From the NCBI GenBank assembly GCA_027214385.1, contig JAPVXR010000004.1, forward strand, positions 62,001-126,000: 64,000 bases of DNA, read 5' to 3'. The stretch is from Cryomorphaceae bacterium 1068 (lineage in GTDB: Bacteria; Bacteroidota; Bacteroidia; Flavobacteriales_D; Cryomorphaceae). The stretch's first letter is position 1; every line of letters starts with the position of its first letter. Of the stretch, positions 2,736-39,426 are shown piece after piece. The notes below the pieces were generated by a model. The model worked only from the letters and a program-made list of their open reading frames with translations, was not told where the DNA came from and made no database searches. Made by a program: the position numbers and the translations under genes.

Positions 2736-3507
2736 AGCCAAAAAGCATCTCGGTCAGCATTTCTTAACCGAGCCTGACATTGCGCAGCGAATTGCCGACT
2801 CGATCAAAGACGAGGTGGGTGTCAGGCGAATTTTAGAGATCGGCCCCGGAACAGGAATCTTCACCCGAGCTTTGATGACTCGAAGGGAATTGGAGCTAAA
2901 GCTGATCGAAATCGATACCGAGTCGGTTGAGCATCTCCACGAGCGCCACCCCGAATTGGGTAACCGAATAATCGAGGGCGACTTTTTAAAAATGGATCTC
3001 AATACCCTTTTCGACGGGAAGCCATTCATCCTTGCGGGAAATTTCCCGTACAACATCTCCTCGCAAATTCTATTTCGAGTGGTGGAGAATCCAGAACTAA
3101 TGCCCGAAATGGTCGGTATGTTTCAAAAGGAAGTAGCCGAAAGAGTGGTATCGGGTCCAGGAAGCAAGGTGTATGGCATTTTGAGTGTGCTGATCAAGGC
3201 ATTCTACGATTCGGAATACCTGTTTACGGTAGAACCAGAGTCATTCGACCCTCCTCCGAAAGTAAAAAGCGGCGTAATCAGATTGGTACGAAACGACAGA
3301 AAAGAACTGCCTGTCCCCTACTCCTTTTTCAAAAGCGTAGTGAAAGCAGGATTCAACCAAAGACGCAAAACGATGAGGAATAGCTTGTCTGCATTTTTGA
3401 ACGACGACCTAAAGGCGGAACTGAGTGAAACACTGAGCTTGCGCCCAGAGCAATTGGGATGTGAGGAGTTTCTGGAATTAGCTGTAAAACTGAGTCCGAA
3501 TCGATAA
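2722..3507 (+). CDS. rsmA: 16S rRNA (adenine1518-N6/adenine1519-N6)-dimethyltransferase
   Basis: RsmA/KsgA, 261 residues, dimethylates two adjacent adenines in the 3' terminal hairpin of 16S rRNA during small-subunit maturation, using S-adenosylmethionine. The KKHLGQHFL opening, SAM-binding motif I (EIGPGTG at about 39-45) and catalytic motif IV (NFPYNIS at 107-113, the usual NLPYNIS with Phe) are present, followed by the C-terminal helical region with FNQRRKTMRNSL. ATG 2722 fits the family N-terminus better than the in-frame ATG at 2710, which would add four residues. The start lies inside the end of the DUF4286 gene, consistent with translational coupling. Confidence 0.97.
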   Translation: MKRVRAKKHLGQHFLTEPDIAQRIADSIKDEVGVRRILEIGPGTGIFTRALMTRRELELKLIEIDTESVEHLHERHPELGNRIIEGDFLKMDLNTLFDGKPFILAGNFPYNISSQILFRVVENPELMPEMVGMFQKEVAERVVSGPGSKVYGILSVLIKAFYDSEYLFTVEPESFDPPPKVKSGVIRLVRNDRKELPVPYSFFKSVVKAGFNQRRKTMRNSLSAFLNDDLKAELSETLSLRPEQLGCEEFLELAVKLSPNR

Positions 3508-3561
3508 AACTCTCTGTAGAACTATTTCCGGGCAATAGCTCTCCCTCCTTTTCCCTTTTCT

Positions 3562-3569
3562 TACTTTTG
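3562..3569 (+). promoter_or_regulatory. Candidate -7 box upstream of mgtE
   Basis: TACTTTTG matches TAnnTTTG exactly and ends 8 bp before the mgtE ATG. No clear TTG lies at the -33 position. The intergenic region here is T- and C-rich. A promoter is plausible but not proven. Confidence 0.4.
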
Positions 3570-3577
3570 GGCTCGTC

Positions 3578-4942
3578 ATGCAGTTCGAACTCACAAAAGA
3601 ATACCTCGACGACCTTAGCGATGCCATCGCCGAGGGCCGCGACTCCTTTTTGGAAAGTGAGCTGGAGGAATTGCACCCTGCTGATATCGCTGAGATATTC
3701 GATAAGCTAAAAGCTCCCGAGCTCAACTACCTCTTCAAACTTCTCGAAAGCGAGAAGGCAGCCGATGTGATGATCGAACTCGATGAGGACGATCGGGAGA
3801 AACTCCTGTCGACACTTACATCAAAAGAAATTGCTCACCGCGTAATCGACAACATCGACTCGGATGATGCCGCCGACGTACTCGCCGAACTTACAGACGA
3901 AAAGCAAGCGGAAGTAATTTCGCACATTACCGACGACGAGCAAAGAAGCGACATCAGCGACTTGCTGCGCTACGACGAAGATTCAGCAGGGGGAATCATG
4001 GCCAAGGAATTGGTCAAAGTGCGTCAATCATGGACGATAGCGCGTAGCATTAGAGAAATGCGCAAACAAGCCGAGGACATCGATGATGTCTACACTATTT
4101 ATGTCACCGATGATGAAGACAAGTTGGTTGGCACACTTTCGCTAAAGGATCTTCTTTTTTCCTCATCTTCCATAAAAGCTACCATCGCGGATATCTACTC
4201 GGAGCAGCCTCTGAACTATGTTTACCCTGATACATCCGGTGAGGATTGCTCAAATACGATGGAGAAATACGATTTGGTTGTTTTGCCGGTGGTTGATCAT
4301 GACATGACCTTACTCGGTCGAATCACGATCGATGATGTGGTAGACCTCATCAAGGAAGAAGCGGAACGCGACTACCAACTAGCGTCGGGTATCTCCGAAT
4401 CGGTTGAGTCAGACGATACCGTTTGGCTCTTAACACGTGCTCGTCTCCCGTGGCTGCTCATAGGGCTTTTGGGCGGAGTACTGGTGGCTCAAGTAATAGG
4501 AGTATTCGAAAAGACCTTGGCTGAAGTAGTTGAGCTCATGGTATTTGTACCTCTCATCGCCGCCATGGGAGGAAATGTCGGGGTGCAATCATCAGCAATT
4601 GTGGTACAGGGCTTAGCCAACAAAACCATTGGTACTGGAAGTATACTTCAAAAACTCACCAAAGAGCTTATGGTAGCTCTGGTAAACGGGCTGATCTGTG
4701 GGTTAGTGATTTTGGCTTACAGCATACTGTTTATGGATTCTCTGGCATTGAGTTACACTGTAGGAATTGCGCTGTTTTCTGTAGTTATCATTGCAGCACT
4801 TTTCGGCACCTTGGTTCCCTTGGTTCTCGACAAAGTCAAAATTGATCCAGCATTGGCCACTGGTCCGTTTATCACCACAATGAACGACATCATCGGTTTG
4901 AGCGTCTATTTTATTTACGCCAAATTCTTTTTCGGACTTTGA
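3578..4942 (+). CDS. mgtE: Magnesium transporter MgtE
   Basis: A 454-residue Mg2+ channel/transporter with the full MgtE plan: an acidic helical N domain (about 25-130, rich in D and E that sense cytoplasmic Mg2+), a YDEDSAGGIM linker signature at about 132-141, two CBS domains (about 140-260), and a C-terminal domain of five helices starting near residue 288. The pore signature PLIAAMGGNVGVQ is in the second membrane helix region. In characterised MgtE, Mg2+ binding to the N and CBS domains closes the pore; this is expected here because all domains are intact. The stop overlaps the TTG start of the next gene by 4 bp (TTGA). Confidence 0.96.
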   Translation: MQFELTKEYLDDLSDAIAEGRDSFLESELEELHPADIAEIFDKLKAPELNYLFKLLESEKAADVMIELDEDDREKLLSTLTSKEIAHRVIDNIDSDDAADVLAELTDEKQAEVISHITDDEQRSDISDLLRYDEDSAGGIMAKELVKVRQSWTIARSIREMRKQAEDIDDVYTIYVTDDEDKLVGTLSLKDLLFSSSSIKATIADIYSEQPLNYVYPDTSGEDCSNTMEKYDLVVLPVVDHDMTLLGRITIDDVVDLIKEEAERDYQLASGISESVESDDTVWLLTRARLPWLLIGLLGGVLVAQVIGVFEKTLAEVVELMVFVPLIAAMGGNVGVQSSAIVVQGLANKTIGTGSILQKLTKELMVALVNGLICGLVILAYSILFMDSLALSYTVGIALFSVVIIAALFGTLVPLVLDKVKIDPALATGPFITTMNDIIGLSVYFIYAKFFFGL

Positions 4943-5889
4943 AAAAAGTGCTTTTCATCGATCGGGTTCACCCCATACTGGAGGAGGAATTGACCAAAAA
5001 CGGCTTCATCTGCGAAGCGGATTATAGCGGTAATTACGAGGTAATAAAAAATAAACTTTCAGATTATCATGGTCTGGTCATTCGCAGCCGAATACCAGTG
5101 GATCAAGCGTTTCTGAAAGCGGGATCAAACTTAGAATTTATCGCCCGCTCTGGGGCTGGCTTAGAAAACATCGATTTGGCTGCGGCCAAAGAATGCGGCA
5201 TCGCAGTTTACAATTCGCCGGAAGGCAATATGGATGCCGTGGGAGAACATGCCATCGGAATGCTGTTGAGCCTGTTCAATTATCTCAATAAAGCCGACCG
5301 TGAAGTCCGGGCAGGTATATGGGATCGCGAAGGAAACCGTGGCCTGGAGCTAGCTGGAAGAACCGTTGGTATCATCGGATTTGGCCATATGGGCTCGGCA
5401 TTGGCGAAAAAGCTTTCAGGTTTCGACTGCCGAATTCTCGCTTACGACAAGTACAAAAAGGGATACGCGCCAACATACGTTGAAGAGGTTTCCCTCGACA
5501 TTGTGAAAGCCGAAAGCGATGTGATTTCAATTCATCTTCCGCTCAGCGAAGAAACAGATCGGTACGTGGACACCGAATTTATCCGCTCTTGCAAAAAGCC
5601 TTTCTTTTTAATCAACACCGCCCGAGGCCGGCATGTAGTAATCAGCGACTTACTGAAGGGGCTGGATGGAGGCAGCGTTCAAGGAGCTTGTCTCGATGTT
5701 TTGGAATATGAAAAGAAATCTTTTGACCTCACTTATCACGAAATGCCTGAATCATTCAGGCTGCTTGCCGAAAACGAACGAGTGATTTTAAGTCCGCATG
5801 TAGCGGGATGGACGAGAGAGAGTTATCTGAAGCTGTCGAGTTTCTTGGCGGAGAAGATTCTAAAAACTTCAAAAGGAAAAGGCAATTGA
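4939..5889 (+). CDS. D-2-hydroxyacid dehydrogenase (phosphoglycerate dehydrogenase-like)
   Basis: A 316-residue NAD-dependent D-2-hydroxyacid dehydrogenase. It has the GFGHMG dinucleotide motif (147-152), an Asp at the end of the second Rossmann strand (AYD, about 170) favouring NAD over NADP, the substrate Arg in INTARG (about 229) and the catalytic His in SPHVAGW (about 287). It lacks the C-terminal ACT or regulatory domain of long SerA enzymes, so 3-phosphoglycerate is only one possible substrate; glyoxylate or hydroxypyruvate reduction is also possible. The start is TTG 4939, overlapping the mgtE TGA stop, and translates as MKKVLFIDRV. The 3' end overlaps the convergent secreted-protein gene by 21 bp. 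Confidence 0.88.
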   Translation: MKKVLFIDRVHPILEEELTKNGFICEADYSGNYEVIKNKLSDYHGLVIRSRIPVDQAFLKAGSNLEFIARSGAGLENIDLAAAKECGIAVYNSPEGNMDAVGEHAIGMLLSLFNYLNKADREVRAGIWDREGNRGLELAGRTVGIIGFGHMGSALAKKLSGFDCRILAYDKYKKGYAPTYVEEVSLDIVKAESDVISIHLPLSEETDRYVDTEFIRSCKKPFFLINTARGRHVVISDLLKGLDGGSVQGACLDVLEYEKKSFDLTYHEMPESFRLLAENERVILSPHVAGWTRESYLKLSSFLAEKILKTSKGKGN

Positions 5890-6618
5890 CAGGCAGATAC
5901 CAGTGACGTTCTGCGGTGCTAGAAAAGTTGAGGGTCCGAAAAAACCAAAACCAGGCTTAGTAACCAATTGAGGGCCTGAATCAGCACCTATAAAAATACA
6001 AACCGCACCCCCGTAATCACTTCGAACTTTTAAGCCAACCTTTGCATAACCCAGTATTCCTCCTTCTTCAAAATCAGTTTCGGTAAGATACCCGTAGCCA
6101 ATACCTAAGGCCAATATAGGCCCAACTCTCTTACTCCCCGAAAATCTAAAATCGAGATTCAAAGGCAGAACCAACGACTCTGAATTAATAGGGACACGCA
6201 ATCCTGATCCTAAACCTATACTGACAGTCCCCCCGAATTCCACAGCAGGTATTAAACCGAAATTCAGAGATGCAACACTTTCTGCATTCTTTCGACCAAA
6301 TGCAATACCCGTATCGACGATCAGACCGAATTTCACCTTTTCAGATTTTTGATTAAACTCATCTCGAATGAGTTTGCCTTTTGCATTGCGCTTGGCCTCT
6401 TGGGTTATTAGTTCAATAACCTTCCAGTCTATCTTTCTTATGAGACTATCCATCGTCTGTATTGTCACATAATCGTTTGGAATATTCTCCAAAATATCGC
6501 CTCTCACAACTTCAGCTGATTTGAGCAAGACCACATCCTGCAAAACGTATTGGGCGCGAGCACTATCGAAAATCAATAGAGCACTCAAGAGAAAAATGAT
6601 AACTGCGAAACGTCTCAT
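5869..6618 (-). CDS. Secreted/outer-membrane hypothetical protein (paralogue of the next gene)
   Basis: A 249-residue protein with a clear signal peptide (MRRFAVIIFLLSALLIF then DSARAQ). After cleavage, about 60 residues resemble the small N-terminal strand-turn-strand region common in Bacteroidota envelope proteins (VVLLKSAEVVRGDILENI). The rest, about 100-249, is Gly-rich with alternating hydrophobic residues, suggesting a small beta-barrel ending in IAFSF. It is clearly related in layout to the gene at 6761-7495: same signal peptide, same domain, same glycine-rich second half. I recognise no specific family. It probably belongs to the same transcription unit as aspartate kinase and GNAT upstream, although a 142-bp gap separates it from its paralogue. 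Confidence 0.75.
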   Translation of the reverse strand: MRRFAVIIFLLSALLIFDSARAQYVLQDVVLLKSAEVVRGDILENIPNDYVTIQTMDSLIRKIDWKVIELITQEAKRNAKGKLIRDEFNQKSEKVKFGLIVDTGIAFGRKNAESVASLNFGLIPAVEFGGTVSIGLGSGLRVPINSESLVLPLNLDFRFSGSKRVGPILALGIGYGYLTETDFEEGGILGYAKVGLKVRSDYGGAVCIFIGADSGPQLVTKPGFGFFGPSTFLAPQNVTGICLSIAFSF

Positions 6619-6760
6619 AGAATTGGTAGATCTTAGTTTCCTGTTCTATATTTCTTCAAAATGCTTTTAAAGCAAAGAGAGCCGTTCAGGCCATATGCTC
6701 GACTAGCGATACACCATTCATATCTTTTCAAAATTCAGTTTTACCGTGAGATCAAACAAA

Positions 6761-7495
6761 CTAAATTCTCATGGCCACAGAAAAGGTGTAAGAATATGTT
6801 TGCAGAATCAACTCAGGAGCAAACATAAATGCGGTTCCCCTTGATTGGAGCGAGTTGTATCTGGGCATTTCATCAAGACCAAAAAGAATTGCTACTGATC
6901 CTCCTCTAAGGTTTTTAATCTGAATACCTAAAGAACCATATCGGATGTCACCCATTTGCCCGACTCCGGGGTCGTCACTAAAGGCTTTGCCTGCACCTAA
7001 AACCAAGATCGGTGCTATTCTCTTTATACCTGAAATTCGGAGATCAATACCGAGCGGGTAGATCCGTTTAGGGTTGCTGAACCTGATACCTGTACCAACT
7101 CCTATGGTGATCCAGTTGGAGATCTGCAGTGCAGGAACCGCAGTGAAACCGGCAAAGTTGAACCCGTTGCTCCCGGGACTATACCTCCAGCCCATCACAG
7201 GGGCAACAATAACTCTAAACGACATCCCTTTGGTAGGTCGATAATTTACCCTCACCAACTGCCTGTCAGTCAGGGTACCTACATCTTGAACGATTGCATA
7301 AATCTGCTCTTTGGAAATGCGAACAAAAGTGGTGTCGGCCATGAGTATCAAAACCGCATCACCTGAGTCATTAATTACCTCGCACCGGATAACCTCGGTA
7401 TCTTCAAGAATAAGAGCATTGTTTTGGGCATTCCCGAAGAGGAAAAAAATTGCAAAGAAGAAAAAAAGTGTGAGTCTCAACTCTATTTGTATCAT
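6761..7495 (-). CDS. Secreted/outer-membrane hypothetical protein (tandem paralogue)
   Basis: A 244-residue protein with a signal peptide ending FGNAQ at about residue 24. The next segment (LILEDTEVIRCEVINDSG, about 28-45) matches the corresponding segment of the 5869-6618 protein in pattern, as does the later part (GVGTGIRF, PLGIDLRISGIKRIAPILVLG versus LPLNLDFRFSGSKRVGPILALG). The second half looks like antiparallel strands of an outer-membrane barrel. No enzymatic motif is visible. It starts 18 bp after the aspartate kinase stop, so it is probably co-transcribed with it. Function unknown. Confidence 0.75.
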   Translation of the reverse strand: MIQIELRLTLFFFFAIFFLFGNAQNNALILEDTEVIRCEVINDSGDAVLILMADTTFVRISKEQIYAIVQDVGTLTDRQLVRVNYRPTKGMSFRVIVAPVMGWRYSPGSNGFNFAGFTAVPALQISNWITIGVGTGIRFSNPKRIYPLGIDLRISGIKRIAPILVLGAGKAFSDDPGVGQMGDIRYGSLGIQIKNLRGGSVAILFGLDEMPRYNSLQSRGTAFMFAPELILQTYSYTFSVAMRI

Positions 7496-32975: not shown

Positions 32976-33395
32976 ATGAAGCGATCTATTCTACTCACAC
33001 TATTTATGGCTACGACGGTTTTTGCCTTTTCTCAAAAAGTGAAAATGTCTAAGGATGCCAAAGAAAAATATGTGAGTCAAGAAGTTATAGCAAAAGAGCG
33101 TGCTGATGAAAATAAAATGGCCGTATATGCCATTCTGAGAACAGAATCAGAAACAGGAAGTAATTTTGTGCAGATTAGGCTGGATGAAAGCAGCAAAGAA
33201 CTTCCAACCAAAGCATCGACCATGAGCTTTCCGGAATTAGAGAAGTTAACAAGAGGGAAGTTTTCTGACAAAGCAGAAATCGATCTCCTTAACTATTTAG
33301 CTGAAGAGGGTTGGGAAGTAGTCGCAGTCGAAAATGAAAGCGAGAAAAAGCTAGTCAAGCGTAAATACTATCTGAGAAAGATGGTATCATTATAG
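32976..33395 (+). CDS. Small secreted protein with a DUF4177-like C-terminal segment
   Basis: A 139-residue protein with a signal peptide (MKRSILLTLFMATTVFAFSQ). The C-terminal part contains LLNYLAEEGWEVVAVENE followed by a basic YYLRK strand. The xxLNxxGxEGWEvV pattern is that of the small DUF4177 family. No catalytic residues are visible. It is followed after 10 bp by a membrane histidine kinase, so the two genes are probably co-transcribed; the secreted protein could be a ligand, a modulator or simply a target of the same pathway (inference). Confidence 0.75.
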   Translation: MKRSILLTLFMATTVFAFSQKVKMSKDAKEKYVSQEVIAKERADENKMAVYAILRTESETGSNFVQIRLDESSKELPTKASTMSFPELEKLTRGKFSDKAEIDLLNYLAEEGWEVVAVENESEKKLVKRKYYLRKMVSL

Positions 33396-33405
33396 ACCAC
33401 TACTC

Positions 33406-34329
33406 ATGGCAAAGACGCCAAATGACCGCAGGGTATCCCTGCTTTTCTATCTTCTCACGCTGTATATTCTTGTTCAGTTTTCTTGGTGGGCATATCTGCT
33501 TATTGATCTGAACAAGCTTTACTATGCTTCCGAAGGTACTGAAACGGTCAACTTAAAAATTTGGATGGTCCTAGGAGAGGGAGCAGTTTTCCTTGTCTTT
33601 TTACTTGGTGGATTATTCATCATGCAACGGACGATCAGAAAGGAAATAAATCTTGTCAGGCAACAAAGAAATTTTCTACTCTCCATCACTCATGAGTTAA
33701 AAACTCCTCTTGCCGCCATTAAATTAGGGATCCAAACCTTACAGAAAAGAAAGGATTTGAGACCTGAACAGCGTGAGCCTCTGGAAAAAACAGCGCTGGC
33801 AAATACCGAAAGGCTTCATAGCTTAATTGACAATGTTTTGTTGGCCACACGAATAGAAAGTGATCAACACCCTTTGTACTTGAACCCGACCAACCTCTCT
33901 GAAAAAACTGAGCAAATCTGCCAAGAGACAGAAATAGCATTGGGAAAAACAGGAATGATAGATCGTGATATTGAAACGGGTGTAACTACTAACATTGATG
34001 GAAATGCCTACGAGTCTATTCTAGTCAACCTCATTGAGAATGCTTTTAAATATGGAGAAAATCGAAGTATTGGGGTCTCTTTGAAAAACGATGGCGACCA
34101 AGTATATCTGTCAGTAGATGATGGAGGCATTGGCATACCGGTGAAAGAGCGAAAGAAAGTTTTTGATAAATTTTACCGCATGGGAAACGAAGAAACCCGC
34201 TCCAAAAAAGGAACGGGTCTCGGTTTATTTATCGTTAAAGAGTTGGTATCGCTGCATCAGGGAAAGATCAGTATCAGTGACAGCCCTTCAAAAGGGGCGC
34301 GATTCACTGTGTCGCTGCCGCTCTCTTAA
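33406..34329 (+). CDS. Membrane sensor histidine kinase (orphan)
   Basis: A 307-residue sensor kinase. Two helices (about 11-33 and 53-73) flank a short periplasmic loop of about 20 residues, too small for a folded ligand domain. HisKA follows with the phospho-acceptor His96 in SITHELKTP, then HATPase_c with N-box NLIENAFKYG (about 208-217), G1 DDGGIG (238-243) and G2 KGTGLGL (268-274). No response regulator is adjacent, and the gene converges with a large secreted protein. The small sensor loop suggests sensing through the membrane or via an accessory protein, possibly the secreted protein encoded just upstream. Confidence 0.93.
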   Translation: MAKTPNDRRVSLLFYLLTLYILVQFSWWAYLLIDLNKLYYASEGTETVNLKIWMVLGEGAVFLVFLLGGLFIMQRTIRKEINLVRQQRNFLLSITHELKTPLAAIKLGIQTLQKRKDLRPEQREPLEKTALANTERLHSLIDNVLLATRIESDQHPLYLNPTNLSEKTEQICQETEIALGKTGMIDRDIETGVTTNIDGNAYESILVNLIENAFKYGENRSIGVSLKNDGDQVYLSVDDGGIGIPVKERKKVFDKFYRMGNEETRSKKGTGLGLFIVKELVSLHQGKISISDSPSKGARFTVSLPLS

Positions 34330-34340
34330 CTAAATACTTT

Positions 34341-36674
34341 TTATTCGCTCCCACCTACTACTTCCAGATTTCCTTGAGTTGTGCACTCTCCGCCGTCAAT
34401 ATTGACAATGTAGAAGTACGTTCCATCAGAAAATCCGTCCGCTGAAAAGCCTTGAGAAACCGTAGCTTCTCCCGTACCGGCATCGTAGCTGCTGTTTTCG
34501 TAAATCAACTTACCCCAGCGGTCGTAGATCAATACGCTTGCGTTTTCAAAGGCATTAATACCAGGCACTACAAATACTTCATTTTGACCATCACCATTCG
34601 GTGTAATAATATTAGGCAAAGGGTTAAGTTTAATGAATGGCACTCTCACCGAAGCAGTATCTTCTCCTATTGACAAGTCGAGATTTGTTCCATCAGAGGA
34701 AACCATGCTATAACCCAATCTATGGCATCTATCCTGAACCGTCAGCGTGAATGTATTAAATCCTGAACCTGCCGTAATAAAGGTGGTCTGAGTATTTGGA
34801 CCAAATCCATCGGTGAAACTGGATTCGCCTTCAGAAATCTCCCATTGATATGTGAAGTCATCACCACCTCCAACTGTCTCAGCAGTGAGTTCTACGGGTT
34901 CTATTGGACAATTGTCAATGATTGGCCCAAAAGAAACTGCCAACGAATCGTAAGTGGGGTAATTGATCACAATGGAATCTCTCACTTGTACTCCACAGGA
35001 ATCGATCAAGGTTAAAAATACGTCAAGATTGGGTGTAAATGCTTGGACAATTTGATTGATGTCTGCCACCTCAATCTCTGGCAAAATAGGATAGTTGTTC
35101 CCATTAGCATCTGTCCAGAGATAAACGTATGGAGGGTTACCATCCGATGCAGAAGCAGAAAGATCCACCGGCTCATTAGGACATGTAGGCCCTACAAAGG
35201 GCAATATTCCCCCGGCCAAAGGAGGTTGTAATGAATTCGTGACGGTAATGGTATCATAAACAAATAAGAACTGACACCTATCTGAAATCTCAACTACATA
35301 CTGTTCTTCATCTGCAGGAAGAGGCACCAATATAGACGATCCATCAATATCACCGGCTAGATCAATCCAGTCATACCGTATATCCTCAACACCACCTGTT
35401 ACTTCTACACTGATAAGCACAGAGTCCTGAGGACAAAAGATATTCGGATTCTCAAATTCTGAAAAAATAGGAACCGGTGGGGCAATAGGTATTGAAAGCA
35501 TTACAGTATCTATTCCTCCGCAGGTTTCATAAATTGCATTTATCACCAAGAACAAGGTGTCCGTGATATTTGGGTTGATCGTTTGAATGTAAAATGCCAA
35601 ACTATCTACACCTGATGGGAAGTTATCAGGAAGATCACCATCTACAATGAAGTCGATACCTTCTGTTGCAGTTCCGGTATATTGAAACTCGATGTCACCG
35701 ATAGTCGCACCTTCCGGTCGGGTCAATGAAACCAATGGTCCTGAGCACCCTGCTACCGCAATTGAGTCCAACCCTTCTTGATCTACTACGTCACCATCCA
35801 GAAATTCGGGCTGAAAGGAGAGATCAAGCTGACCAAAAGCCTGAAAAGATCCTGCCTCGAGAAACACTCCTGAATCCAAGGCTCCATCAAATGCATCACC
35901 GATGGCCAATTTGATATGATACTCTTCACCACACAATACGGCTGCTTCGGCAGTAAGGGTGACTGTCATACCTGGAAATTGCACATCACCTGTAGGAAGA
36001 CCTCCGTTGTCTACAAAATACTGACTATCCTCAATCCAATTTGGGTTTGCCGCCTCACATGTGGCAGGGTCCCCTCCTCCTGTTGCAGCTCCGCCGTTCA
36101 CTGTATTGATTGCTACAGGAATATCCGTATCAGGAATTAATGCAATGTTAATCGCATCACTCGTAAAAGGTCCTGATATTCCAGGCCCACTCAAGAAGAA
36201 ACCGAAGGCATCATTGAAATTTGTACAGGTATAACCAGGATATTCGTTCGAAGCAAATACGTAGTTGAACTTGAGTGAATCTGAGCTTACGACGAAGTCA
36301 AACTCCAATACTGCAGCATCGTTTATATTTTGACCCGATATTGCAACTAGATCAGGGTCATTGGTTATTGGATTCGTAGGGCCAGGACCCGCAAATGTAC
36401 CTGTAACCTGATCAACCGCATTTCCTGAGACCATTACAACCCCTTCATCGAAATCTATGACGGTACTTGTTCCTTCAAACAAACCTATTTGAACATTTAC
36501 CTCATCGGCAGGCTCACCATTAAACGTAATATTAGTAGCCTGAACACCTTCTCCCAAGAGGAAGTTGTTAACCAAATCCTCAACTGTAATAGTATTATCA
36601 ACGGAAACCTGAGCTGATACTGACCCTGTCAGAATAGCAAAAACAAAAATAATAAGATGCTTAGCGAATTTCAT
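34341..36674 (-). CDS. Choice-of-anchor L / T9SS type-B sorted surface protein
   Basis: A 777-residue exported protein with a signal peptide (to about residue 21). Residues about 25-285 form a choice-of-anchor L domain (EDLVNNFLLGEGVQATNITF, NDAFGFFLSGPG, INIALIPDTDIPVAINTVNG). Calx-beta-like and Ig-like modules make up the middle. The last about 90 residues (IITPNGDGQNEVFVV, VLIYDRWGKLIYE, DGTYFYIVN) are the gliding-motility-associated C-terminal domain that directs secretion through the type IX system (type-B sorting). Such proteins are exported and attached to, or released from, the cell surface and often act as adhesins. It is a paralogue of the larger neighbour at 36706-39426 and starts 31 bp after that gene's stop. 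Confidence 0.93.
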   Translation of the reverse strand: MKFAKHLIIFVFAILTGSVSAQVSVDNTITVEDLVNNFLLGEGVQATNITFNGEPADEVNVQIGLFEGTSTVIDFDEGVVMVSGNAVDQVTGTFAGPGPTNPITNDPDLVAISGQNINDAAVLEFDFVVSSDSLKFNYVFASNEYPGYTCTNFNDAFGFFLSGPGISGPFTSDAINIALIPDTDIPVAINTVNGGAATGGGDPATCEAANPNWIEDSQYFVDNGGLPTGDVQFPGMTVTLTAEAAVLCGEEYHIKLAIGDAFDGALDSGVFLEAGSFQAFGQLDLSFQPEFLDGDVVDQEGLDSIAVAGCSGPLVSLTRPEGATIGDIEFQYTGTATEGIDFIVDGDLPDNFPSGVDSLAFYIQTINPNITDTLFLVINAIYETCGGIDTVMLSIPIAPPVPIFSEFENPNIFCPQDSVLISVEVTGGVEDIRYDWIDLAGDIDGSSILVPLPADEEQYVVEISDRCQFLFVYDTITVTNSLQPPLAGGILPFVGPTCPNEPVDLSASASDGNPPYVYLWTDANGNNYPILPEIEVADINQIVQAFTPNLDVFLTLIDSCGVQVRDSIVINYPTYDSLAVSFGPIIDNCPIEPVELTAETVGGGDDFTYQWEISEGESSFTDGFGPNTQTTFITAGSGFNTFTLTVQDRCHRLGYSMVSSDGTNLDLSIGEDTASVRVPFIKLNPLPNIITPNGDGQNEVFVVPGINAFENASVLIYDRWGKLIYENSSYDAGTGEATVSQGFSADGFSDGTYFYIVNIDGGECTTQGNLEVVGGSE

Positions 36675-36705
36675 GTAGTAGTAATTAAGGCCTGTAAATC
36701 TAAAC

Positions 36706-39426
36706 TTATCGGACTAAATGGACAAGCCCTGTTATTTTGGTAGCGTCGTCTTCCGACTCGCCTTTGTATTCGATAAGGTAATTAAAGGTGGTTGAACCAG
36801 GATAGAACTCTCCGTTTCTATTGGAGCCATTCCACTTAACATCAGGGTCATTGCTATAAAAAACCTCTTCTCCCCAGCGGTCAAAAATCCACATATCAAA
36901 CTCAGTGATATTCTCTCCATAAACTCCAAATAAATCATTAATACCGTCTCCGTTTGGAGAAAATGCGGTAGGGATAAAGATTTCTGTAGGAGGGTCGGTG
37001 ACTAGATAAGCCGTATCCTGACACCCTTGGATATCCGTAGCGGTGAGAATCACAGTGTAGCTATCCAGTCCACTGAAAAAATGACGTGGATCTATTTCAT
37101 CACTCCTGTTTCCATCCCCAAAATCCCAGAGATAAGTCAGCCCTTCACCAATCGAGTAATTTTCGAACTGCATTCCGTAGTACTCTATTTCCGTGTGGTC
37201 AAAATCAGCTCTTACGTTTCGGATATCTACTGAAATGATCGAATCTGCTCGCATACCGCAAGTGTCGCTTACGCTCATGAAATAATTTCGGTCGCTATCA
37301 GGCTCCACGGTTAAACTCATTCCCGTTGAGTCGGGATAACCCTCCCAGACGTATTTAAAATTACCTGACCCTCCTACAGCTACTGCTCGAAGCACCGCAT
37401 CTGTCTCAGGACAGATCGACGTGTCGGGACTGAGTTCAAAACTCACTTTGGGATAGTCAAATTCGACTATGGTCGTGTCCTTCGCGAAATTCTGACATTG
37501 ATCCTCGGCGTGAACCGCCACGGTTTGACCCATTGATGGGTGATAGTCAAAGTACGAGAGTGGCGATGAATCAACAAGAGTATCACCGTCTACAGTCCAA
37601 GTAAACCTCAATCCACCAATTCCACCATCGGCAATAACTGGGAGAAGGAATCCTTCCAAACAAGTCTCCGCTACATATCCTTGCGGCACAAAAGCAGTGA
37701 CGTCTGAAGGAGGTAGCTCGACAAAAATGGTATCAGAATCTGTATCACCACATACATCACTGGCGATCACAGCGACTGTCGATGTGGCTTCTACCAGATA
37801 ATTAAACGGATTCGCGTCAGTAACGAATTCCCCATCTACAAACCATTGGTAATTGTATGCGCCAAAACCACCTGATGTCGTTTCAGGTGTTAGTGGTAAA
37901 ACGACATCACATGTTTCAATAAAGACATCATCACCCAAATCAACAAAAACGGGTGGATAAACCGGCACATCCACGTTAAACTCTGTAGAAAGCGGATCTA
38001 CCCCGCAGGTATCGGTAACCGTAAGAAAATAAGTAGTGGTAAAACCAGGAGATACAGTAATTGTATCGGCTGACATTCCATTGCTCCATATGTATCCATA
38101 CTCCCCATAACCACCTGTAACAGTAGGGAATAGCTCTATCTCATCCGAGCAATCCTGTAAAGCACCATCGAAACCCGATATTTCCATGGGATCGGGCTCT
38201 CTTATATAGAATTGGAAATTAGAAGTGAGGACCGCTCCTGAACATTCAGAGGCCACGTTAGTAATGGTAACTATTACCGTTTCTTCACCTTCGCTCAAAC
38301 CATCAAATGGGGCGCTCATTGTTATAAATACAGTGTCGACACCAAGCGGAAATACAATGCTATCAGGCAATTCAGGTAAGAAGTCCACTCCGTTAGTTGC
38401 AGTTCCCGAAATTTCCAAATAAGCAACCTCTTGAATACCCGAACTTGCTACAGGTCGGATAAACTGCAAGTAAGCTTCACCGCACCCTTCGTATAGAGTG
38501 GAGTCATTCACACCTACTGGAATATCAAGACTAACGTCTACAGCACTATTTGAAGTAAATGAACCTGCTTCTAGAAAGACTCCTGAATCAAGGGCCCCAT
38601 CTGATGCATCTCCAATAGCCAATTTAATGTGGTATTCTTCACCACACTGAACTTCTGCATAAGCCGTTAGCGTCACGGTCATCCCGTTGATTTGAATATC
38701 GTCGGGGATCATGTCATAATTCTCTACAAAATACTGACTGTCTTCAACCCAATTCGGGTTCAAACTTTCACAGTTTTCTGCTTGCCCTCCGCCTGTAGGG
38801 ACACCTCCATTTACCGTATTAACCCCAACAGGAATATCACTGTTAGGAATCAAGGCGATATTTATGGCATCATCAGTGAAAGGCCCATTTAGGCCTGGTC
38901 CACTTAAGAAAAAACCGAAGGCATCATTAAAACTTGAGCATGTAAAACTCTGGTATTCTGTCGAAGCGAAAACGTATCGAAACTCAAGCGAGTCCCCATT
39001 TGGAACGAAATCAAACTCCAGAACAGCGGCATCATTGATATTAAATCCCGAAATCTGGACGAGGTCTGGATCATTTTCTAATTCAACTGCTATCGGGTCA
39101 CCCGTAAAATCACCTGTCACTAAATTAGAGGCATTTGTAGTGGCAAGAACCAATGCCTCAGGAAATTCAACCAATGCGCTGTTTCCCGAAAACCGGGCTG
39201 CCTGAACATTGATTTGATCAGCAGGCTGGCCATTGAAGGTAATATTGGTGACTGATACTCCATTTCCGAGAAGAACGTTTTGAACCAGTTCTTCAACGGT
39301 CATAGTGTTGTCCATTTCTATCTGAGCACCAGCAGGTAACACGGCAAATGAGAGTATAAAGGCGAAAAGTAAGCCAATTGGCTTTATTGATGATCGAGTA
39401 GTTTCCATGGAATCGGTTGTAAACAT
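36706..39426 (-). CDS. Choice-of-anchor L / PKD / T9SS type-B sorted surface protein
   Basis: A 906-residue exported protein. A signal peptide ends AGAQ at about 35; ATG 39408 (six codons later) is an alternative start giving a shorter n-region. The choice-of-anchor L domain (about 38-300) is close to that of the neighbouring paralogue. A Calx-beta-like unit (about 310-400), several Ig/SprB-like repeats each with TDTCGV- or DVCGDTDSD-type strands, and a PKD unit (FENYSIGEGLTYLWDFGDGN, about 765) follow. The C-terminal CHU_C domain (PTAFSPNGDGINDLFGVYG, WIFDRWGEEVFYS) is the type IX type-B sorting signal. Cell-surface adhesion is the most likely role, inferred from domain content. Confidence 0.93.
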   Translation of the reverse strand: MFTTDSMETTRSSIKPIGLLFAFILSFAVLPAGAQIEMDNTMTVEELVQNVLLGNGVSVTNITFNGQPADQINVQAARFSGNSALVEFPEALVLATTNASNLVTGDFTGDPIAVELENDPDLVQISGFNINDAAVLEFDFVPNGDSLEFRYVFASTEYQSFTCSSFNDAFGFFLSGPGLNGPFTDDAINIALIPNSDIPVGVNTVNGGVPTGGGQAENCESLNPNWVEDSQYFVENYDMIPDDIQINGMTVTLTAYAEVQCGEEYHIKLAIGDASDGALDSGVFLEAGSFTSNSAVDVSLDIPVGVNDSTLYEGCGEAYLQFIRPVASSGIQEVAYLEISGTATNGVDFLPELPDSIVFPLGVDTVFITMSAPFDGLSEGEETVIVTITNVASECSGAVLTSNFQFYIREPDPMEISGFDGALQDCSDEIELFPTVTGGYGEYGYIWSNGMSADTITVSPGFTTTYFLTVTDTCGVDPLSTEFNVDVPVYPPVFVDLGDDVFIETCDVVLPLTPETTSGGFGAYNYQWFVDGEFVTDANPFNYLVEATSTVAVIASDVCGDTDSDTIFVELPPSDVTAFVPQGYVAETCLEGFLLPVIADGGIGGLRFTWTVDGDTLVDSSPLSYFDYHPSMGQTVAVHAEDQCQNFAKDTTIVEFDYPKVSFELSPDTSICPETDAVLRAVAVGGSGNFKYVWEGYPDSTGMSLTVEPDSDRNYFMSVSDTCGMRADSIISVDIRNVRADFDHTEIEYYGMQFENYSIGEGLTYLWDFGDGNRSDEIDPRHFFSGLDSYTVILTATDIQGCQDTAYLVTDPPTEIFIPTAFSPNGDGINDLFGVYGENITEFDMWIFDRWGEEVFYSNDPDVKWNGSNRNGEFYPGSTTFNYLIEYKGESEDDATKITGLVHLVR

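Follow-up and report, generated by a model that had tools for sequence, protein, structure and literature searches.

A long-kept tandem of choice-of-anchor L surface proteins in a Cryomorphaceae bacterium and probable ancient head/tail exchange in its gene family

Two adjacent genes in the 64,000-nucleotide stretch of Cryomorphaceae bacterium 1068 analysed here (the window) probably represent an old, vertically kept tandem of adhesin-like surface proteins, in whose gene family heads and tails were exchanged rarely and long ago, the present pair not having taken part recently. The original prediction had read the pair as a near-repeat in which recombination could exchange adhesion modules behind a constant domain. 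The observation behind it is real but was overstated: exchange disagrees with the present state of the pair and agrees with the history of the family. Throughout, T1 (P1, gene B) is the upstream and T2 (P2, gene A) the downstream gene of the pair, G000 is the window's own genome, f1 its family and G001 a genome of the same genus as G000; the family comparison set comprises eight genomes of the window's own family.

The pair, its domains and its neighbours

T1 (906 residues; 36706..39426, minus strand) has a start that by eye resembles a signal peptide, followed by an anchor-L N-domain, a middle part and a T9SS type B C-terminus, and T2 (777 residues; 34341..36674, minus strand) has the same head, a different middle part and a T9SS C-terminus. 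The intergenic gap of 31 bp (36675..36705) is consistent with one transcript, and the two genes may be co-transcribed. The choice-of-anchor L N-domains, each of 253 residues, match NF038133 at 38557..39315 in T1 (E 1.1e-58) and at 35844..36602 in T2 (E 4.6e-64), both on the minus strand, with scores of 198.3 (T1) and 215.9 bits (T2) against a cut-off of 27 and matches that span profile positions 2-219 and 3-219 of 219, respectively. A PKD-like domain (PF18911; residues 754-805; 37012..37167, minus strand) closes the T1 middle part. CHU_C/T9SS type B sorting domains are found at 36748..36978 in T1 (PF13585 E 1.1e-14; TIGR04131 E 7.2e-10) and at 34368..34619 in T2 (PF13585 E 1.6e-19; TIGR04131 E 2.9e-10), again on the minus strand, with 54.7 (T1) and 70.3 bits (T2) for PF13585 (cut-off 27) and 38.9 (T1) and 40.1 bits (T2) for TIGR04131 (cut-off 35), scores that by sequence class both proteins as T9SS type B cargo. 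The predicted arrangement of two adjacent T9SS-sorted proteins is thus borne out by same-strand reading frames that both combine NF038133 with a T9SS type B/CHU_C C-terminus, and the domain make-up of the two departs in nothing from that of other proteins with NF038133 and TIGR04131/PF13585.

The anchor-L N-domain is very common in the order, with matches at E <= 1e-20 in 383 of 399 sampled genomes. When T2 was searched against its own genome, 31 places matched at E <= 0.001; six of them span the N-domain, being T1, T2 and four copies dispersed elsewhere, and the other 25 cover middle or C-terminal parts, some belonging to those same N-domain genes. A plasmid search returned nine records, all distant. 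The head domain had no significant match among solved structures (best E 0.62, or 0.66 with a profile), the T2 head matched nothing in Pfam at E <= 1, and a comparison of 39 aligned head-domain members with Pfam gave seven families, each matching one member only (best E 0.028). A few literature searches by domain name found no description of such a tandem conserved with an M20 peptidase on one side and a histidine kinase on the other, and listings and abstract openings for 'choice-of-anchor' held nothing on the choice-of-anchor L domain; we likewise found no literature on gene conversion of gliding motility-associated C-terminal proteins or on concerted evolution of Flavobacteriales adhesins.

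The pair is flanked, in conserved synteny, by genes for an M20 peptidase upstream (match to the dipeptidase model PRK08201; 39562..40935, plus strand) and a sensor histidine kinase downstream (HisKA and HATPase_c; 33406..34329, plus strand). As far as the contigs extend, the family genomes have these neighbours too: the peptidase is found beside the pair in G002, G005, G006 and G007, and the kinase in G001, G002, G003 and G006. G005 is an exception, as its contig continues past T2 but the kinase is located on a different one. Pair and kinase are on separate contigs in G004 and G007 as well, but there the contig of the pair ends in or beside T2. The same neighbours recur beside or near anchor-L genes more widely, the peptidase in f1, f2, f4, f7, f10 (a few kb away) and the metagenome-assembled genome of locus L093, the kinase in f1, f2, f9, f10 and again at L093. 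Among 60 sampled genomes, the own genome included, the kinase gives one match each at E <= 1e-35 in 47 and anchor-L matches at E <= 1e-40 occur in 44. Both are present in 38 genomes, 20 of which have the kinase no more than 10 kb away from a listed anchor-L match; some of the other 18 involve short contigs (G004, G007, G010, G021), and in some the kinase is truly apart, on the same contig but far from anchor-L (G009, G057).

No close second copy of the kinase exists in its own genome (107 bits for the next best match), in the PDB it matches histidine kinases of a general kind, and all of the NCBIfam models listed for it (25 of 83) score below cut-off. By analogy, it could be the T9SS orphan kinase PorY. 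In the parts available to us of two reports on the PorA-PorXY-SigP system, a CTD-bearing surface protein is linked to an orphan sensor kinase by genetic evidence (PMC7712824; PMC4800418). As far as those parts go, the window resembles that system in that a pair of T9SS cargo genes adjoins a sensor kinase gene, in many genomes, and differs from it in that a link would be suggested by gene neighbourhood rather than by genetics. Also beside the kinase, at 32976-33395 on the plus strand, is a small protein with a start that looks by eye like a signal peptide and a weak likeness to DUF4177, below cut-off; it is 41% identical in G001 versus 69-87% for the other flanking genes.

Likeness of the two copies and their conservation within the family

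The N-domain shared by T1 and T2 is real, but it is not almost identical as had been proposed: over 253 aligned residues, the proteins are 67% identical and the DNA 65%, with 40% identity for third codon positions. Matching DNA does lie where it had been placed, with a best repeat of 74% over 144 nt (35844-35987 versus 38557-38700) and a second of 88% over 41 nt (36007-36047 versus 38720-38760). The middle and C-terminal parts differ as predicted, in proteins of 777 versus 906 residues, and beyond the N-domain identity falls to 30% in protein and 43% in DNA, the level of alignment noise.

As a DNA null, codons for the same two proteins were drawn at random from local usage in 1000 simulations. 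N-domain DNA identity is 0.652, slightly above the 0.625 of this protein-and-codon-usage null, and 5 of 1000 simulations attain the observed value; the same codon is used at 74 of 168 identical residues, where codon usage predicts 61.8. Both the best 144-nt window (0.74 versus 0.72 under the null; 232/1000) and the longest identical run (17 versus 13.8 nt; 214/1000) are unexceptional. A control comparison of T2 with its G002 ortholog shows a similar small DNA excess (17/1000). Among other T1-T2 pairs, those of G002, G005 and G007 have no excess in overall DNA identity (452, 320 and 306/1000), with a long identical run of 22 nt in G005 (19/1000) and a somewhat high best window in G002 and G007 (50 and 8/1000); more excess is seen in G004 (39 and 21/1000), and a larger one in G006 (0/1000, with 4/1000 for the best 144-nt window). 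As the DNA likeness of the window N-domains is close to the null and no tract rises above it, the repeat is neither near-identical nor recent. It is what two conserved protein domains give, plus a small diffuse excess, and the synonymous sites of the pair are near saturation. Alignment at the DNA level, which had been suggested as a check for gene conversion, hence yields no identity tract beyond protein conservation in the window pair; the small excess there, like the larger excess of G006, would be compatible with partial conversion at an earlier time.

Within the family, both middle parts are clearly matched in all eight genomes: a best match stands out for that of T1 and, on the same contig, for that of T2, with weaker matches to other copies too. 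The T1 middle parts are colinear and 48-65% identical over 515-522 positions in the full-length comparisons made (57-63% over 327-329 positions for the G004 copy, which is truncated), so that they do not constitute a hypervariable module. The T2 middle parts are looser, at 32-42% for most pairs compared and 60% for G003 versus G006, and that of G001 is 31-33% identical to those of other genera and 42% to that of G000. Contig ends cut several copies, G001 and G003 being without the T1 head and G007 without part of T2. The T2 reading frame of the draft genome G004 is split at L052 (G004:C259) into overlapping frames of 216 and 432 residues, which may reflect sequencing error or decay.

We made 23 clade tests in all (8 + 5 + 4 + 3 + 3, a fourth grouping in the last set needing no test), for which raw p-AU values are given and in which several groups were named after seeing a tree. 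The N-domains of T1 and T2 from the same genome as sisters were rejected in all four genomes tested (p-AU 0.007 in G000, 9e-5 in G002, 8e-4 in G005 and 1e-8 in G006). With no DNA tract and with sisterhood rejected, recent gene conversion in the window pair was discarded as an explanation, and recombination does not appear as a current process there. One-to-one conservation of each copy, which the original prediction itself had set against exchange, is indeed what the eight genomes display for both middle parts, as far as recent exchange in the window pair is concerned.

The G001 counterpart of window positions 34341-36674 lies at 13604-16006 of L152 (G001:C29). Between G001 and G000, T2 identity amounts to 59% for the N-domain, 42% for the middle and 79% for the C-terminus, as against 76% for the T1 middle part. 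A replaced downstream gene in G001 was considered; divergence is graded, no breakpoint is seen and the clade test is weak (p 0.042).

Heads and tails across families

Simple one-to-one descent of whole proteins across families was also rejected, as both the bit scores and the head versus tail trees disagree. The G000 T1 middle part matches the upstream genes of f4 and f7 and the dispersed f2 copy L083 with 207-317 bits, whereas T1 and T2 middle parts match one another with 0-68 bits over the comparisons made, G000 T1 giving no match to its own neighbour. The T1 N-domains, by contrast, score 233-365 bits to T2 N-domains versus 172-223 bits to those f4, f7 and f2 genes; the exception on the N-domain side is the first-position f2 gene L059, at 281-284 bits to T1.

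The N-domains of 13 upstream genes from four families were rejected as one clade (p-AU 1.3e-7), as were those of f1 and f7 alone (8e-76) and of f1, f2 and f4 (0.0005), whereas the tails of the upstream genes fall inside one 17-row group (support 100/99) that is without the tree's three T2 tails. That group has further members of the same tail type, namely dispersed copies (C3 type, L083) and an f7 gene in second position, and the 13 upstream tails alone are borderline as one clade (p 0.047); the family T1 and T2 tails as one clade were rejected (nine rows, p 9.9e-7). In G035 (f7) the N-domains of the two neighbours are sisters (97/93), but their tails as sisters were rejected (p 1.8e-10), as was a grouping of the second gene's N-domain with its tail's partners (p 0.0038); the four f7 upstream N-domains, G035 included, are compatible with one clade (p 0.096).

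All T1 N-domains are compatible with one clade (p 0.445), and all T2 N-domains are not (p 0.0012, or 0.00097 without G001). T2 together with three dispersed copies is compatible as an N-domain clade (p 0.128), so that copies made from T2 can account for some of the conflict; three versions of T2 with related dispersed copies were compatible in all (p 0.128, 0.191 and 0.373). An N-domain clade that joins T1 to the T2 copies of G000, G002 and G004 is compatible (p 0.387), and one of T1 and T2 lacking G001 was rejected (p 0.015). As the family T2 N-domains with the f2 copies L082 and L083 are compatible (p 0.128; T2 with L082 alone rejected, p 0.0008), a specific conversion in the window's own lineage is not proven, nor is one that affected the T2 N-domain in the stem of the family. 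Taken across families, the conflict between N-domain and tail trees suggests ancient head/tail exchange in the gene family, and by this conflict the pair would fall among tandem surface-protein genes with ancient module exchange.

Neighbouring anchor-L genes were surveyed in 48 stretches (47 loci and the window), picked for holding N-domain matches and thus non-random, taking same-strand neighbours within 1.5 kb. Of the 32 rows found, four are without a comparable tail (both G004 rows, one of which pairs two pieces of one split gene, one from G023 and one from Saprospiraceae). Of the 28 comparable rows, 24 have the greater likeness in the N-domain (G149 by a single point) and four in the tail (G025, G037, G045 and one G091 pair). 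At 67%, N-domain identity is higher in the window pair than in any other of the 32 rows. Third-position identity in the N-domain ranges from 30 to 50% across the survey, which indicates that no surveyed N-domain pair is recent, and a recent tail was found in G045 only. Arrays of four adjoining anchor-L genes with mixed tail likeness occur at L170 (G091:C105) and L172 (G183:C237).

G045 belongs to genus g20 of family f9, in which a locus of this kind carries a tandem pair on the side of the kinase. The two tails of G045 share 99% identity at both the DNA and the protein level, against 53% protein identity for its N-domains. Over about 1,225 bp the two copies differ by five mismatches and one indel (L162, G045:C2:2596000-2608000, about 3504-4728 versus 5697-6922); this near-identical stretch begins ~45 bp downstream of the N-domain and reaches ~175 bp beyond the stop codon, into the 3' flank; three of the mismatches are coding, and the other two and the indel lie beyond the stop codon. 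Misassembly is unlikely, given that the G045 assembly is in two contigs. G025 and G037, also of g20, are close to one another (91-92% DNA identity), and within either genome the two tails share 75% identity. When G045 is compared with G025/G037, the N-domains correspond one-to-one (62-63% for T1-T1 and 69% for T2-T2, versus 50-53% crossed), and the tails are only 50-53% identical. Tails alike within genomes and heads matching one-to-one argue that in g20 the tail was overwritten within genomes and the heads were kept apart. The proposed exchange of modules behind a constant domain is therefore upheld by the tree conflict and by the fresh G045 case but not as a current process in the window pair, and its polarity is reversed in g20, where the tail was made constant and the N-domain kept distinct.

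Competing histories and their meaning

In the history we favour, T1 and T2 share a conserved choice-of-anchor L head, followed by different stalks and by T9SS type B sorting. Long ago, heads and tails at the locus would have been exchanged or overwritten by segmental gene conversion between neighbouring or dispersed copies, or alternatively by unequal recombination; such events would be rare, with the present pair not a recent participant. Judged from their sequences, both proteins would be secreted through the inner membrane, exported by the T9SS and attached to the cell surface, where the head may be presented outward as a binding or surface-assembly module and the tails may give each protein its own reach or partner, in the manner of adhesins.

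The chief competitor, plain old whole-gene duplication with a constrained N-domain, Ig-like tails diverged past recognition and never any exchange, seems to us unlikely, if still worth serious attention. It accommodates the compatibility of all T1 N-domains as one clade and of T2 with its related dispersed copies, and unequal constraint alone would give the greater N-domain likeness in 24 of 28 rows. It does not sit well with the T1 middle part matching genes of f4 and f7 and L083 but T2 weakly at most while the T1 N-domains prefer T2 over those genes, with the significant conflict between head and tail trees, or with G045, G025 and G037, where tails follow the genome and not the gene. We hold it very improbable that modules are being actively exchanged at the window pair, diversifying the adhesins by recombination behind a constant domain: the layout and shared head are real, a relative (G045) offers a fresh case, and in G001 the T2 middle has diverged far more than its C-terminus or the T1 middle part (42% versus 79% and 76%), but the window pair holds no recent tract, both middle parts are clearly matched in all eight family genomes, the G000 N-domains were rejected as sisters, and divergence along T2 between G000 and G001 is graded with no sharp breakpoint seen. 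That one gene was duplicated or split by misassembly or annotation is scarcely credible; nothing in the window speaks for it, though contig ends fall inside these genes in the draft relatives G001, G003, G004 and G007, both frames are open and differ throughout, and the recurrence of the arrangement in other assemblies already refutes an artefact.

A bolder reading, to which we give little credence, takes the locus of M20 peptidase, anchor-L genes and histidine kinase as an ancient surface cassette of the order, whose head and stalk-plus-sorting modules recombine in either direction with breakpoints just after the head, accompanied by a kinase that reads the surface proteins to control the T9SS. 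There the kinase would act as PorA and PorY do in P. gingivalis, by analogy with what the consulted parts of the reports on that system describe, and, if true, heads would have been homogenised in some lineages and tails in others.

Returning to the old, vertically kept tandem with rare ancient exchange, a parallel exists in Porphyromonas gingivalis, where surface proteins, T9SS cargo among them, have undergone domain rearrangement and allelic exchange, according to the portion of the report available to us (PMC5266723). To the extent described there, both cases concern T9SS cargo built of modules whose order varies among copies and strains; P. gingivalis displays strain-level mosaics in one species, whereas the window belongs to an ancient between-family conflict together with one relative's fresh tail copy. 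The comparison made here separates a silent old pair from a relative, G045, in which one gene half has just been copied over the other, and it illustrates how a repeat that the eye picks out between two adjoining surface-protein genes can owe almost everything to conservation of the protein. On the history favoured here, the pair is a long-lived cassette with occasional module exchange, and such exchange is an ordinary mode of surface-protein evolution. If true, head/stalk exchange at a fixed junction in T9SS cargo would be one route by which Bacteroidota diversify their surfaces while leaving the secretion signals untouched.
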